This document shows, piece by piece, positions 1-33,023 of a stretch of DNA of 33,023 nt (the first letter of the stretch is position 1; each line of letters opens with the position of its first letter). This DNA is from Lachnospiraceae bacterium. GTDB taxonomy: Bacteria > Bacillota_A > Clostridia > Lachnospirales > Lachnospiraceae. A model generated the notes under the pieces. The model was not told the DNA's origin. It saw only the letters and a list, made by a program, of their open reading frames with translations, and ran no database searches. Location of the stretch: assembly GCA_017613595.1 (NCBI GenBank), contig JAGADM010000107.1:1-33023 (forward strand). The letters are read 5' to 3'. The position numbers and the translations under genes were made by a program.

Positions 1-475
1 CGTCAAGCTTGTCCACGGTCAGCTTTCCGTAAACTTCGCCGTTGATCGTCATGACAGGTGCAAGTCCGCAGGCGCCGATACAACGGCATGCATCCAATGA
101 GAACTTGCCGTCCGGCGTGCACTGTCCGCCTTCGATACCGAGCTTTTCACAAAGCTTGTTATAGATGTCACCCGATCCTTTTACGTAGCAGGCTGTACCA
201 AGGCATACGGAAATTGCATACTTTCCCTTCGGATAGAGAGAAAACTGTGCGTAGAAGGTAACAACACCGTAAACCTTCTCCAACGGAATTCCGGTCTCAT
301 CCGAAATCATCTTCTGAACTTCGATCGGCAGATAACCATAGATGTCCTGTGCTTTCTGCAGAATCGGCATCAGTGCGCCCCGCTCATCCTTAAGCTCACG
401 AATAACCTGCAACAACTGTTGCTTCTGTTCTTCAGTTCCGCGGAAAGGAACTGTCGTCTTTTTGTCAGCGCCCAT
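1..475 (-). CDS. NuoE/HndA-family [2Fe-2S] subunit of an NADH dehydrogenase or [FeFe] hydrogenase complex (C-terminus cut by window edge)
   Basis: Thioredoxin-like [2Fe-2S] electron-transfer subunit of the NuoE/HndA/HydC family, which passes electrons between a flavin NADH (or NADPH) subunit and the rest of a cytoplasmic complex. The 158 readable residues begin with a basic, hydrophilic helix. Cluster ligands are visible as C91-x4-C96 (CLGTAC) and C132-x3-C136 (CIGAC), the family pattern, and the motif GVVTFYAQF near residue 70 is typical. The ATG at 475 follows an AAAGGAGG box at 482-490. The family is usually 155-175 residues, so only a few residues should be missing beyond base 1. In Clostridia the next genes are usually HndB/HndC/HndD or NuoF/hydrogenase subunits, which would lie outside the window. 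The choice between an electron-bifurcating hydrogenase and another complex cannot be made here. Confidence 0.93.
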   Translation of the reverse strand, partial: MGADKKTTVPFRGTEEQKQQLLQVIRELKDERGALMPILQKAQDIYGYLPIEVQKMISDETGIPLEKVYGVVTFYAQFSLYPKGKYAISVCLGTACYVKGSGDIYNKLCEKLGIEGGQCTPDGKFSLDACRCIGACGLAPVMTINGEVYGKLTVDKLD

Positions 476-3481: not shown

Positions 3482-4186
3482 ATGGATACTGTGAAAACCG
3501 CACTAGTCACCGGAGCCTCGTCGGGCATCGGACGCGCCGTCGCGGAAGCGCTTCTTGCGGACGGCTTCACGGTCTACGGCATCGGCCGGACCTTCCCCGA
3601 AGACACCGACGCACGGCTTCACAAACTCGAATACGACCTCACGAAGACCGCAGGTCTTCCGGACTATCTGAAAACAAATGTGCCGCAGCCGCTCTCGCTT
3701 CTCGTGAACTGTGCCGGCTGCGCCTACTACGGGCCGCATGAGACGCTCTCTCCCGCCGCCGTTCACGAAATGGTTGCGGTCAACGTGGAAGTGCCCCTGC
3801 TTCTTACAAACCGCTTCCTGAGGGATTTACAGAAGACGCAGGGCGCCGTAGTGAACATCTCGTCCGTGACGGCAAAGCAGAGCAGCAACACCTACGGCTG
3901 CGCCTACGGGGCGACCAAGGCCGCACTGTCGCATTTTTCGGAGGCGCTCTTTGAAGAGACAAGAAAGAGCGGCGTACGGATCATCACGATCCACCCCGAT
4001 CTGACCGATACGAACCTCTACCGGAACGCGGACTTCCGTCCCGCTGAAGAACCCACGTGTGTCCTTACCGCGCAGGAAGTCGCGGAAGCCGTTCTCTTCG
4101 CCGTTCACGCAAGGGACGGTCTTGTCGTAAGCGACATCACGCTGCGGCCGCAGAAGAACCGCATCGTACGGAATAAAACGGAGTGA
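3482..4186 (+). CDS. Short-chain dehydrogenase/reductase (SDR) family protein
   Basis: A 234-residue classical SDR with a Rossmann fold. Visible motifs are the cofactor loop TGASSGIG (10-17), an NAG-type motif written NCAG (76-79), the catalytic serine in ISSV (126-129) and the Y142-x3-K146 pair (YGATK). R26/R36-type basic residues after beta-2 (GIGRTF) favour NADP(H), but this is a weak guide. It acts in the cytoplasm on an unknown alcohol or carbonyl. ATG 3482 is chosen because AAAGGA lies seven bases upstream and the fold begins at once; a GTG 27 bases earlier lies inside the SPL-like gene. It is the third gene of the operon. The last codons are part of a 28-bp imperfect tandem duplication that continues past the stop. 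Confidence 0.88.
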   Translation: MDTVKTALVTGASSGIGRAVAEALLADGFTVYGIGRTFPEDTDARLHKLEYDLTKTAGLPDYLKTNVPQPLSLLVNCAGCAYYGPHETLSPAAVHEMVAVNVEVPLLLTNRFLRDLQKTQGAVVNISSVTAKQSSNTYGCAYGATKAALSHFSEALFEETRKSGVRIITIHPDLTDTNLYRNADFRPAEEPTCVLTAQEVAEAVLFAVHARDGLVVSDITLRPQKNRIVRNKTE

Positions 4187-4213
4187 CCGCATCGTGCGGA
4201 ACAAGGCGGCGTG
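4158..4213 (+). repeat. Imperfect 28-bp tandem duplication across the SDR stop codon
   Basis: Unit 1 is 4158-4185 and unit 2 is 4186-4213; 23 of 28 bases agree. Both begin ACCGCATCGT and end with GTG. The stop codon of the SDR gene lies at the junction, so the second copy is untranslated. It looks like a slippage or duplication event that has since diverged. Confidence 0.75.
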
Positions 4214-4316
4214 ACCGCCCCGGCCGTCGGCCCGTATTCACACCCTTGCCGCACTCTGGCCGGAGGGGACACGGTACCGCCGGGAACCGCAGCGGCACTT
4301 TATCGGAAACAACACG

Positions 4317-29808: not shown

Positions 29809-31035
29809 CTACCACTCTTCCTGCTGCAGTTCGGTAATGAACTTCGCAAGCTTCTTCGCGGCTTTCCCGTGCGTTGCCTCGCTCGGATGCCAGTCAACAA
29901 CAATGCCGTCGTTCTCGACATCCTGCTCCTCAAACCGCATCGTCACGATATTGGTGTCGCCCTTTTCGGTCTTAAACTCTTCCACGGCCTTTTCCATGCT
30001 TTCGCAGAGCTCGGTTCCCATGATGCCGAGCGTGCAGATGATCTTCGCGTCCGGATTCTTGGCTCGTACGGCCGCGAGGAATTCCTTATAGCCGTCGATA
30101 TACTCGCGCTTCTTGGCGTCATCCTTACAGTAGCTCGAATCGTTGGTGCCGAGATTGATGACTACGATATCGGGAAGGAACTCATCAAAGTCCCAGTCAA
30201 TCTCGTCCGCACGGCGTCCTTCGCCGAACGTCGCGATGGACATGCCGAACTTCGTGTAATACGGCGGAAGAATCTTGTCGCCGAGTTTCTCCCCCGTCGC
30301 GGTATAGCCGGAAACGATTCCGTATCCGCTGATGCTCACGAGGCTGTAGTCCGCGTTGAGAAGGTCGGCCGTCTTGTAGGCAAATGCCTTCGTGCAGTCC
30401 TCATTTGCCGTGGAATATACGTCCTTTTCGAACTCGCCGTCCACGCCGTAGCCGCAGGTGATGGAGTCTCCGATAAACTCGATCCGCGTCGCGCGCGCCG
30501 AAATCGGAAGCAGCGAGCCGGTCATGGTCAGCGACTCGATGCCGACAACGGAATCCGATACTTCGGAAAGCTTGATGATCTTTACGGTTGCAAATGTGAG
30601 TTTCTCACTCTCGATAATCTTAACATCCTTGCGGGGCTCGTCCATCAGAACGTCCGCAACGCGCTCGCCGTCAACAAATATCCCCACGCGTGCCGCGTGT
30701 GTCGCGCTTGTGTACTGGTCATCGGACACGAGATGCACGGTGCAGTCATGTCCCGCGAAGGTAAATTCGACGCCGCTTCCGGAGTATCCGCACCAACGGA
30801 TATCCTTCTCATAATAAGTCCGGCCGATTGTCTTTACATTGTCTTTGGTCATTAAGTACTCGGTCTCGGTAAGATCCGGTACATAGGGTTCTTTCGTCGG
30901 TTCCACTGTACTTTGTCCTTTCGTCGGAATCGGTGTAAGCGGGACCGGGCGCCCCGGTTTCTCATGCGTCGTACATCCGCAGCAAAGCAGCACCGATGCA
31001 AGGATCAGCACTGCAATTTTATATCCTCTTTTCAT
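29809..31035 (-). CDS. CE2-type acetylxylan esterase lipoprotein (SGNH hydrolase)
   Basis: Predicted surface carbohydrate esterase of 408 residues. Signal peptide and likely lipobox ending at C21 (CCGC), a Pro/Thr linker (26-52), an N-terminal jelly-roll domain (about 65-180, GSGVEFTFAGHDCTVHL and the FVDGERV strand) and a C-terminal SGNH domain (about 183-408). That order is typical of family CE2 deacetylases. Catalytic elements: S191 (FIGDSITCGYG), glycine block ISGYG, N298 (LGTND), and D381-W-H383 (DWHPS). It should remove acetyl groups from xylan or other polysaccharides. ATG 31035, five bases after GGGAGG. It is a single gene with a good promoter; the repeat array lies directly upstream of that promoter. 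Confidence 0.9.
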   Translation of the reverse strand: MKRGYKIAVLILASVLLCCGCTTHEKPGRPVPLTPIPTKGQSTVEPTKEPYVPDLTETEYLMTKDNVKTIGRTYYEKDIRWCGYSGSGVEFTFAGHDCTVHLVSDDQYTSATHAARVGIFVDGERVADVLMDEPRKDVKIIESEKLTFATVKIIKLSEVSDSVVGIESLTMTGSLLPISARATRIEFIGDSITCGYGVDGEFEKDVYSTANEDCTKAFAYKTADLLNADYSLVSISGYGIVSGYTATGEKLGDKILPPYYTKFGMSIATFGEGRRADEIDWDFDEFLPDIVVINLGTNDSSYCKDDAKKREYIDGYKEFLAAVRAKNPDAKIICTLGIMGTELCESMEKAVEEFKTEKGDTNIVTMRFEEQDVENDGIVVDWHPSEATHGKAAKKLAKFITELQQEEW

Positions 31036-31063: not shown

Positions 31064-31092
31064 ATTTTACTGAAATGAGGGGCGGACGTCAA
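31064..31092 (-). promoter_or_regulatory. Promoter of the CE2 esterase gene
   Basis: On the minus strand: -35 TTGACG (31087-31092), 17-base spacer, -10 TAAAAT (31064-31069), 29 bases before the ATG. Each hexamer is one base from consensus. The first inverted-block repeat begins about 40 bases upstream of the -35. Confidence 0.75.
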
Positions 31093-31132
31093 TAGAAAAT
31101 GGGAACCGGCTGGACGGCACGGGGTACACGGA

Positions 31133-31191
31133 CCGGACTGCCTCGGGAGTCTAGCCGGACTGCCTCGGAAAACCGGACCGGACTGCCTCGG
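31133..31191 (+). repeat. Three direct copies of a 14-bp core (CCGGACTGCCTCGG), 22-23 bp apart
   Basis: Exact copies start at 31133, 31155 and 31178. The bases between copies differ. The core is the reverse complement of the repeats at 31262-31363 (GCAGTCCGG), so the two blocks face each other across a central hairpin. Confidence 0.9.
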
Positions 31192-31245
31192 AGGAGGTTG
31201 TCTCAGGAACTGAATCCTTCGTCAACCTCCTCCGGGCGCGTCCGG
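31178..31245. repeat. Long central hairpin between the two repeat blocks
   Basis: CCGGACtGC then a 14-bp stem (31187-31200 with 31223-31236, one G-T pair), closing a 22-base loop that itself contains AGGA/TCCT. The outer part (31178-31186 with 31238-31245) continues the pairing with a one-base bulge. No T run follows at once, although TTATTTTTC comes five bases later on the plus strand. Confidence 0.8.
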
Positions 31246-31261
31246 AAAGTTATTTTTCTAA

Positions 31262-31363
31262 GCAGTCCGGGGGTTCTTTCTCAAGCAGTCCGGATGATTT
31301 TTTCCAGACAGTTCGGAAGTTACTCTTCCAGGCAGTCCGGATGTACTTTTTCAAGCAGTCCGT
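31262..31363 (-). repeat. Five direct copies of a 23-bp repeat with core GCAGTCCGG
   Basis: Cores start at 31262, 31285, 31308, 31332 and 31355, a spacing of 23, 23, 24 and 23. Copies 1, 2 and 4 have the exact 9-mer; copy 3 has two changes (ACAGTTCGG); copy 5 ends in T. Upstream of each core is a pyrimidine run such as TTTTTCAA. In minus-strand reading each unit is CCGGACTGC followed by a TTGAAAAA-like tract. Confidence 0.9.
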
Positions 31364-31489
31364 TAGTTTTTTCTTGCTTGTGCTCATTTTTGGGTGCTGA
31401 AATGATATGGGTTCCCTTGAAATCTATTGTTTTTGAAATCAAGTAGGAATGTGGATGTGTCAATTGCATATGAATTCCATAAAAAGGGG

Positions 31490-31531
31490 GATTTCGTATG
31501 CAAACCGGTTGATATCGGCTCATACGAAATC
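31490..31531. repeat. 11-bp perfect inverted repeat (GATTTCGTATG ... CATACGAAATC)
   Basis: Arms at 31490-31500 and 31521-31531 with a 20-base interior. It is the most regular of three related elements in this spacer. Confidence 0.75.
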
Positions 31532-31547
31532 TCAGTTTCTTAAGATT

Positions 31548-31582
31548 GTGTATGAAACAGACGGAACCCGTTTCCCATGAAA
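31548..31582. repeat. Degenerate copy of the 35-base semi-palindrome
   Basis: GTGTATG (31548-31554) and CCCATGAAA (31574-31582) match the arms of the elements at 31694-31728 and 31490-31531 with the same internal spacing of about 22 bases. Confidence 0.5.
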
Positions 31583-31693
31583 TCAAGAAATTAAGGCGAA
31601 AGGTAGGCTCATGCATCGGGGCCGGCGAAAAATGAACATAAAGAGAAGAAAAAACTCCTGAATCAGCCCACCAAAAAGGGAGTTTGCGTAATC

Positions 31694-31728
31694 TCGTATG
31701 AACGATGTCTCTCTCCCTTCCCACGAAA
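31694..31728. repeat. Degenerate copy of the 35-base semi-palindrome
   Basis: TCGTATG (31694-31700) and CCACGAAA (31721-31728). On the minus strand it shares TTTC-T-GGGAA, then GTT-CATAC, with the copy at 31548-31582 in register. Confidence 0.5.
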
Positions 31729-31746
31729 CTCCTCTGCTGACAAAAA

Positions 31747-31775
31747 CAGAGGACTGCCGGGGCGGCAATCCTCTG
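31747..31775 (-). terminator. Terminator of carB
   Basis: CAGAGGA pairs with TCCTCTG (31747-31753 with 31769-31775), one mismatch, then TGCCG with CGGCA around a GGG loop. Five T's follow on the minus strand (A's at 31742-31746). It lies about 60 bases past the carB stop. Confidence 0.88.
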
Positions 31776-31836: not shown

Positions 31837-33023
31837 TCAGTGAATCTCGCTGTGGATCTCCTGGAGAGACTTTACGCTGTGCTCGCTGTGGGTCTTTACA
31901 TAGTGGATACCGTCCGCGGTAGCAAGGGCTGCTGCCATCGTCGTTACGTACGGAACCTTTGCCTTGATGGCTGCCTTACGGAGGTAGCTGTCGTCGTGCA
32001 GGCTGTTCTTGCCGATCGGGGAGTTGATGATCAGCTGGATCTGTCCGTTCGTGATCAGGTCGTAGCAGTTCGGACGTCCTTCGTACAGCTTGAGTGTCTT
32101 CTCCGCGGGGATTCCGGCTGCGGTCAGACGGTCGTAGGTGCCGCCGGTCGCGTAAATCTTGAAGCCGTCGCCGACAAGGGATTCCGCAACCTTGAGTGCC
32201 TCTTCCTTGTCCTTATCCTTTACGGAGATCAGAACGTTACCGGAAAGCGGAAGCTTGCTCTGGATTGCTTCCTGCGCCTTGTAGAACGCTTCGCCGTAGG
32301 ACGGGGAAAGTCCGAGTACCTCACCGGTGGAACGCATCTCCGGTCCGAGGATCGGGTCTACTTCAGGGAACATATTGAACGGGAACGCGGCTTCCTTTAC
32401 GCCGTAGTTCGGGATAACCATCTCATGAAGATCCGGAACCGGGGACTTGCGTCCGGTCAGTTCGGATGTAATGATGTCGGTTGCGATCGGTACCATGCGG
32501 ATGTTGCAGACCTTCGATACAAGCGGAACGGTACGGCTTGCTCTCGGATTTGCCTCGATTACGAATACCTTGCCGTTCTCGATGGCGTACTGCATGTTCA
32601 TAAGACCCTTAACATGCATCTCTTCCGCGATCTTTCTCGTGTATTCCTTGATGGTCTTCAGATTTTCCTCGGAGATGTGTACCGAAGGAAGGATACATGC
32701 GGAGTCTCCGGAGTGGATACCCGCAAGCTCGATGTGCTCCATTACCGCAGGGACAAATGCGTGTGCGCCGTCGGCGATCGCGTCGGCCTCGCACTCGGTC
32801 GCGTGGTTCAGGAAACGGTCGATCAGGATCGGACGGTCGGGCGTTACGCCGATCGCCGCCTTCATGTATTCGGTCATCTGCTCGTCATCGTATACGACTT
32901 CCATGCCGCGGCCGCCGAGTACGAACGAAGGACGTACCATTACGGGGTAGCCGATCTTCGTCGCGATCGCGATAGCGTCGTCAACGGTAACCGCCATGCC
33001 GGACTCGGGCATCGGGATGTCGA
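31837..33023 (-). CDS. carB: Carbamoyl-phosphate synthase large subunit, C-terminal part (N-terminus beyond window edge)
   Basis: The last 395 residues of CarB, the ATP-using subunit that makes carbamoyl phosphate for pyrimidine and arginine synthesis. The frame is open to the window edge (residues DIP before the first internal Met), so the Met at 33012 is not the start. Visible: most of the second ATP-grasp domain (YPVMVRPSFVLGGRGMEVVYD, RFLNHATECEADAIADG, HIELAGIHSGDSACILPS, VIEANPRASRTVPL) which phosphorylates carbamate, then the MGS-like allosteric domain (YATGGTYDRLTAAGIPAEK, INSPIGKN) that binds UMP in other species. The full protein is about 1,060-1,070 residues. It is followed by its own terminator. 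Confidence 0.97.
   Translation of the reverse strand, partial: DIPMPESGMAVTVDDAIAIATKIGYPVMVRPSFVLGGRGMEVVYDDEQMTEYMKAAIGVTPDRPILIDRFLNHATECEADAIADGAHAFVPAVMEHIELAGIHSGDSACILPSVHISEENLKTIKEYTRKIAEEMHVKGLMNMQYAIENGKVFVIEANPRASRTVPLVSKVCNIRMVPIATDIITSELTGRKSPVPDLHEMVIPNYGVKEAAFPFNMFPEVDPILGPEMRSTGEVLGLSPSYGEAFYKAQEAIQSKLPLSGNVLISVKDKDKEEALKVAESLVGDGFKIYATGGTYDRLTAAGIPAEKTLKLYEGRPNCYDLITNGQIQLIINSPIGKNSLHDDSYLRKAAIKAKVPYVTTMAAALATADGIHYVKTHSEHSVKSLQEIHSEIH

Follow-up and report, generated by a model that had tools for sequence, protein, structure and literature searches.

Introduction

Small hairpin-forming repeats are dispersed in many bacterial genomes, and those described so far in the sources consulted come mostly from Proteobacteria and streptococci. 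According to the consulted parts of these sources, BOX of Streptococcus pneumoniae is an interspersed hairpin with conserved ends and variable tandem modules, and it is thought to affect co-transcribed genes (PMC3049150). REP/BIME elements are found mainly between co-directional and convergent genes, and their G-T pairs have been read as indicating that they work as RNA (PMC3733652). ERIC/RU-1 and Correia/NEMIS give long base-paired transcripts, and a role of RNase III has been proposed for NEMIS; ERIC is co-transcribed with genes and has an orientation-dependent effect on mRNA stability (PMC2229807). Template switching, in turn, can create and maintain RNA hairpins (PMC8794818). In yeast, such switching between short inverted repeats homogenises the arms and inverts the spacer (PMC8604942).

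We analysed a stretch of 33,023 nucleotides from a Lachnospiraceae bacterium (contig JAGADM010000107.1), called the window below, in which two opposed repeat blocks flank a long hairpin at 31133-31363. The locus appears to represent a new family of small dispersed hairpins rather than an array of protein-binding sites. Like BOX, it is a small interspersed hairpin with a conserved part and repeat units in variable number. By description, which is all that was compared, the boxB modules are tandem inside the element, whereas here the copied arms lie on either side of a core that stays fixed, in opposite orientations. With REP/BIME, as far as the source describes them, it shares the co-directional or convergent placement (0/33 members divergent) and the G-U pairs. 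However, REP stems have 5-13 bp and a GTAG or CGTC tag, while this hairpin has 29 modelled pairs in 77-81 nt, and neither tag was seen by eye among the conserved columns of our two alignments (A1 and A2). The Y1 (RAYT) transposase linked with REPs of the GTAG type also shows no association with it (counts below). ERIC is described as 127 bp long with TA ends and target duplications; for this hairpin no TA ends were found, and target duplications were not visible by eye between flanks that have diverged. As in the structured RNA classes of Rfam, a covarying hairpin is combined with conserved unpaired residues. No Rfam family reached its gathering score in the window, and at E-value thresholds (the window part and eight loci) the matches were microRNA, snoRNA and sRNA models far below their cut-offs. 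A literature search by titles and the starts of abstracts, Lachnospiraceae included and not sequence-based, gave no description of this hairpin family among the entries listed.

Architecture of the carB-esterase spacer

Along the minus strand, carB is followed by a terminator-like hairpin, a stretch with five inverted arm copies at its end, the conserved hairpin, whose 3' arm is the first 14-mer, two more 14-mers, the promoter-like site and the CE2 esterase. The features are as follows, with the basis of each in brackets.

31837..33021, minus: carB (carbamoyl-phosphate synthase large chain), 3' part, upstream gene (Pfam on 31837-33012)
31747..31775, minus: terminator-like hairpin and T run after carB (terminator scan; similar in the relatives L001 and L002 by eye)
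31246..31744, strand not applicable: stretch without counterpart in G001, 499 nt against 13 nt there, including the five-copy block (blastn segments)
31262..31363, plus: opposed block of five inverted 3'-arm cores, at 31262, 31285, 31308 (variant), 31332 and 31355 (variant) (repeat scans; absent in G001)
31174..31250, minus: imperfect hairpin of 77 nt (model match 86.2 bits, E 1.6e-18, the window being among the nine seed sequences)
31235..31245, minus: P1 5' arm CCGGAC (31240-31245) with motif GC and GCC (31235-31239) (fold, alignment)
31202..31221, minus: tip CGAAGGATTCAGTTCCTGAG (pattern search)
31178..31191, minus: 3' arm CCG-A-GGC-A-GTCCGG, which is the 14-mer copy inside the hairpin itself (fold, alignment)
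31155..31168, minus: duplicate 3' arm, second 14-mer (repeat scan)
31133..31146, minus: duplicate 3' arm, third 14-mer (repeat scan)
31064..31092, minus: promoter-like site TTGACG-17-TAAAAT before the esterase (scan; similar in L001 and L002 by eye)
29809..31035, minus: CE2-type GDSL esterase, downstream gene (Pfam CE2_N and GDSL lipase)

A sequence-only reading of this DNA had described three exact 14-mers at a period of 22-23 bases and, in reverse-complement orientation, five 9-mer cores (three exact, two variant) at 23-24 bases, with a long hairpin in between, the array standing 40-280 bases upstream of a near-consensus promoter of a CE2 esterase. The repeat scan, the fold and the Pfam matches agree with this description. 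The 14-mer CCGGACTGCCTCGG starts at 31133, 31155 and 31178 (spacing 22 and 23). On the opposite side of the hairpin, exact copies of GCAGTCCGG start at 31262, 31285 and 31332, and the variants ACAGTTCGG (by eye) and GCAGTCCGT at 31308 and 31355; the five cores are spaced 23, 23, 24 and 23. Between the promoter-like site and the array the distance is 41 to 271 bases, and one such site was found against 0.6 expected in shuffles. Tandem Repeats Finder reports both blocks as arrays, at 31129-31192 (period 22, score 86) and at 31255-31362 (period 23, score 91). It also gives a 28-bp tandem repeat of 2.2 copies elsewhere in the window (4158-4218). Between 31100 and 31400 the commonest 9-mer occurs six times on the two strands together, against a mean of 1.5 and a largest value of 5 in 2000 dinucleotide shuffles, so that this count was reached in 0/2000 of them. 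Both repeat blocks consist of additional copies of the conserved hairpin's own 3' arm.

Structure and conservation of the hairpin core

The core consists of P1, a GC/A internal loop, three base pairs, a bulged A, P2, a tandem G.A step, a tip helix and a 6-nt loop. It folds at -48.7 kcal/mol, whereas shuffled sequences average -25.3 (z -7.3). In the 3' arm, the unpaired A at 31184 is retained in all 28 distinct rows of alignment A2, and the bulged A is at 31188. The tip CGAAGGATTCAGTTCCTGAG is unique in the window even with up to 3 mismatches, and its pattern with at most one mismatch is present in 4/22 genus genomes. A 281-nt region of the locus folds strongly on both strands (z -6.3 for plus, -7.7 for minus). 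The strand of the conserved hairpin, left unspecified in the sequence-only reading, is the minus strand, the same as that of carB and the esterase.

Two alignments were made. In A1, nine sequences aligned with MAFFT and with a structure drawn by hand, both sides have changed in 16/29 pairs. In A2, fitted to the model's structure, this holds for 24/29 pairs, 94.6% of the cells are paired, and the covariation score is 0.595 against 0.167 when shuffled and at most 0.104 when slid. The length is 77-81 nt across the 28 rows; two weaker matches outside A2 have 82 and 117 nt, and members of the family are mostly 77-82 nt. The 5' GC of the internal loop is kept in 25/28 rows, the opposite 3' A in 28/28, and the one- or two-base bulge past the next three pairs also in 28/28. 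Mean entropy is lowest in this motif (0.24 bits), followed by the tip (0.58), P1 (0.89) and P2 (1.16). These conservation values are to be read with the fact that members were found by a model already carrying the loop-motif positions; the G001 copy at the carB locus has lost the loop GC and has TT instead. Among the inner 27 pairs there are 19 G-U and 3 A-C pairs, and among all pairs, including the two outermost, which are often unpaired, 19 G-U and 8 A-C.

Covariation in itself is not proof of selection, since compensatory changes could arise from template switching alone. Since template switching would tend to erase such asymmetry, we take the asymmetric loop to point to selection acting on the sense strand. 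Taken together, the covariation, the almost invariant asymmetric loop and the G-U excess suggest selection on the minus strand as RNA. Here the sequence-only reading had also proposed a switching multi-hairpin, in which any left arm could pair with any right arm. Its general idea of a structured RNA is favoured by the covariation; the free arm-to-arm pairing finds weak backing, the two flanks of the window ranking 2 and 8 as each other's complement among 34 members.

An interspersed family in few related genomes

A scan with the esterase gave two relatives, L001 (RGIG2751, goat omasum, 88% identity) and L002 (RGIG8119, water buffalo rumen, 70% identity), and further copies of the hairpin are found elsewhere in both genomes. 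The relatives consist of many contigs and at least these two are MAGs, in which repeats can be misassembled. The first model, built on nine sequences, matched 6/22 genus genomes (G001, G002, G003, G008, G018 and G021) in 36 rows, four of them antisense copies of other rows. The second, built on 29 matches, gave 39 rows with one antisense in 6/9 genus genomes and none in the other three. Combined and with antisense rows excluded, they define 39 distinct places, the weakest with E about 1e-5. We studied 34 of these and the window, 35 members in all (G003:C112, G003:C60, G008:C13:156515, G008:C31 and G002:C29 were left out). The weak matches L043, L058, L053 and L060 were rejected, having by eye the appearance of coding sequence. 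At L108 (1500-1880) two elements stand in tandem with starts 156 bp apart, followed by about four 38-bp repeats.

In the larger samples, 1/299 genomes at family level and 1/392 at order level were positive, in both cases G001, the starting genome; divergent copies may be missed there, since the filters were stricter and 12-15 candidates were scored per genome among the rows listed. Ranked by identity of the RelA start to that of G003, the top five of 20 matching genomes, with 87-100%, are all carriers, and one of them is G003 itself; this leaves one of the six carriers. The next, G013 with 86%, is without a model match, and G018 has no RelA match and is therefore unplaced by this measure. The hairpin thus seems to belong to a small, genus-restricted interspersed family in a few closely related bacteria.

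Dispersed intergenic copies, several per genome and filled or empty at the same loci, are also what a non-autonomous MITE-like element, spread by a transposase and without host function, would leave behind. We regard such an origin as quite improbable. No target duplication is visible by eye between filled and empty loci, whose flanks have diverged; copies that share P1 differ in P2 (by eye), unlike the products of recent spread; and the G+C content of the model matches is 0.54-0.74, not AT-rich. The Y1 transposase PF01797, the one transposase domain searched, occurs in 1/6 element genomes against 5/16 others, in genomes that may be incomplete, and mobilisation by a RAYT was rejected on the same counts. 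The 281-nt region matches 0 of 50,697 phage and 0 of 72,556 plasmid records, and the exact tip pattern is absent from viral contigs; a loose two-unit pattern retrieved 40 viral stretches (pattern match only). A phage or plasmid origin was rejected on these searches of phage records, plasmid records and viral contigs.

Copies of the hairpin arm around the core

The exact 14-mer CCGGACTGCCTCGG has nine matches in the 22 genus genomes: four in two G001 elements, two in one G021 element, and single ones in G009, G010 and G019. With at most one mismatch there are 67 matches against 37 for a reversed-pattern control, and no second cluster like the array of the window is found among them. The layout itself, with opposed blocks around a long hairpin, does recur with other sequences. 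The 35 members were scanned together with up to 400 nt of flank on each side. Two-sided arrays in which the element's own arms take part occur at G003:C53 (periods 38/42), G018:C47 (36/41) and in the window (23/22), and the arms of the first two differ from those of the window. G003:C18b, too, is flanked by arrays on both sides, whose periods of 74 and 28 are unlike. In G003 and G021 the hairpin also adjoins long tandem arrays with units of 74 to 95 bp (L092, L100 and L091).

At the carB-esterase locus, the position of the hairpin in L001 corresponds to that in the window, and five AGTCCGG cores, two of them exact 14-mers, lie 3' of it. The opposed five-copy block is absent from G001, the nearest relative. 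Homology between the window and G001 ends after the carB terminator and restarts at the first base of P1, with 85.9% identity from there through the end of the esterase. G002/L002 has no element upstream of the esterase, and the promoter-like site is retained there by eye. Inside the stretch missing from G001 there is an 11-bp inverted repeat, GATTTCGTATG / CATACGAAATC (31490-31531), and similar TTCATACGA sequences occur near a G008 element (L107, by eye). A single TTTCRTAYGA 10-mer is present in the window; 25/100 shuffles have as many or more, so that the observation may be nothing.

These comparisons bear on the proposal that the blocks are operators or iterons in the DNA, to which protein binds along a single helix face to control the esterase. 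The period of about 23 in the window (22-24), partly kept in the G001 block (cores spaced 23, 24, 25 and then 15), and the location upstream of a promoter-like site would fit it. However, the unit is the hairpin arm, the other opposed arrays have other units and the periods 38/42 and 36/41, the five-copy block is missing in G001, and in G002 the whole element is missing while the promoter-like site is kept. We consider such control of the esterase highly improbable and have given up that part of the sequence-only reading. Nor does the locus look like an iteron array, in which repeats of one direction stand beside a gene for a replication initiator: the two blocks are opposed, the neighbours are carB and the esterase, and there is no plasmid match.

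Genomic placement

With neighbours taken from codon-weighted gene calls, 33/35 members have both neighbours. Seventeen lie in sense orientation between co-directional genes, 12 between convergent genes and four antisense between co-directional genes; none is between divergent genes. Several members are orthologous, and grouping by eye gives about 20 independent loci. The antisense members are the flipped copy described below and three more, the upstream gene call being weak at G008:C5. These members show that sense orientation is not needed at every locus.

The flanking genes include apt, relA, dtd, tyrS, purH, icd, a GPH-type transporter gene and a methyltransferase-like gene, which we take to be such by recognition from sequence. 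By eye, the apt-relA spacer is short and without the element in G013, carries a small hairpin in G001 and has long forms in G002, G003 and G021, the tip of the last holding extra arm sequence. In G008 (L112) it holds a short module, GGCAGGCGCGCC-ACTTT-GGCAGCCTGC, with the loop motif kept and P2 and the tip absent. Beside the methyltransferase-like gene the element is present in G003, G018 and G021; at this locus in G001, G002, G008 and G013 it is absent and the genes abut or nearly so. Upstream of the transporter gene there are four copies, two in G002 and one each in G003 and G008. G001 and G021 have this locus without the element, and G013 and G018 gave no match.

In the window, the scan of the sense strand for intrinsic terminators gives only the site at 31775-31747 and none in the hairpin. 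On the opposite strand a weak 6-pair terminator-like site (31231-31246) overlaps the hairpin's 5' arm. Situated between the terminator-like and promoter-like sites, the hairpin of the window may go untranscribed.

Matching layers and the flipped element

The flanking blocks vary from locus to locus and from genome to genome. At G003:C53 the layers alternate outward between two variants, and each left copy matches the right copy of equal rank (by eye). At one locus the nested outer arms differ among genomes (by eye). The own left and right flanks are mutually best complements in 12/34 members, the window not being one of them, and flank complementarity was rejected as a rule of the family on that count. 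Between G001:C41 and G021:C69 the element is flipped: 112 bp align on the minus strand at 96.4%, while the flanks are collinear on the plus strand at 91.8 and 87.5%. The exact 14-mer of the window stands on both sides of this flipped element in both genomes.

The blocks would be additional copies of the hairpin's arm that arose in place, some through replication slippage and some through template switching between inverted arms; such switching could also flip the whole element. Template switching would account for the matching layers and the flip, and slippage for the tandem copies. We hold this origin, the flip included, to be probable.

A rival reading is a neutral palindrome without function, that is maintained and regenerated as an inverted repeat by template switching alone. 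The variation of the nested outer arms between genomes, the one flipped segment and the small, patchy family are consistent with this, and the yeast and RNA-hairpin cases (PMC8604942, PMC8794818) are precedents for the process in the consulted parts of those papers. Several features speak against it, namely the GC/A loop and the bulge, which survive in 25 to 28 of 28 rows and which switching would tend to erase, the prevalence of G-U over A-C (19 to 3 for inner pairs, 19 to 8 for all), the length of 77-81 nt in 28 rows and the 0/33 members between divergent genes. We judge a neutral palindrome unlikely. The constancy of the core would follow from selection on RNA, and we lean slightly towards a genus-restricted hairpin family whose sense strand is kept as a structured RNA and whose arms have been duplicated around the core.

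A possible role and its meaning

As for function, the placement of the members, together with the effects reported or proposed for BIME, ERIC, NEMIS and BOX, leads us to a tentative proposal, which we would rate as possible and a little short of likely. The hairpin would act on the transcripts that contain it, as a processing, stability or attenuation site, and the GC/A internal loop would be the recognition point for a putative factor. In the window, with the terminator of carB on one side and the promoter of the esterase on the other, the hairpin would be present only on read-through RNA from carB, where it could be a site of cleavage or a barrier; the esterase would be little affected directly. 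The most far-reaching form of the proposal is a new structured RNA class, a hairpin of nearly constant length in the operon spacers and 3' regions of a single Lachnospiraceae lineage, that is read through its GC/A loop by a putative RNA-binding factor, goes on adding concentric complementary layers and can be flipped as a unit. We regard this complete picture as somewhat unlikely at present.

The same loci are found in filled, empty, layered and flipped states in these few close genomes, to which this family seems confined. They form a natural series for the origin of long RNA hairpins, and the series bears on whether template switching or selection maintains the pairing. If the new RNA class is real, the RNA architecture of one and the same locus would differ between closely related species.
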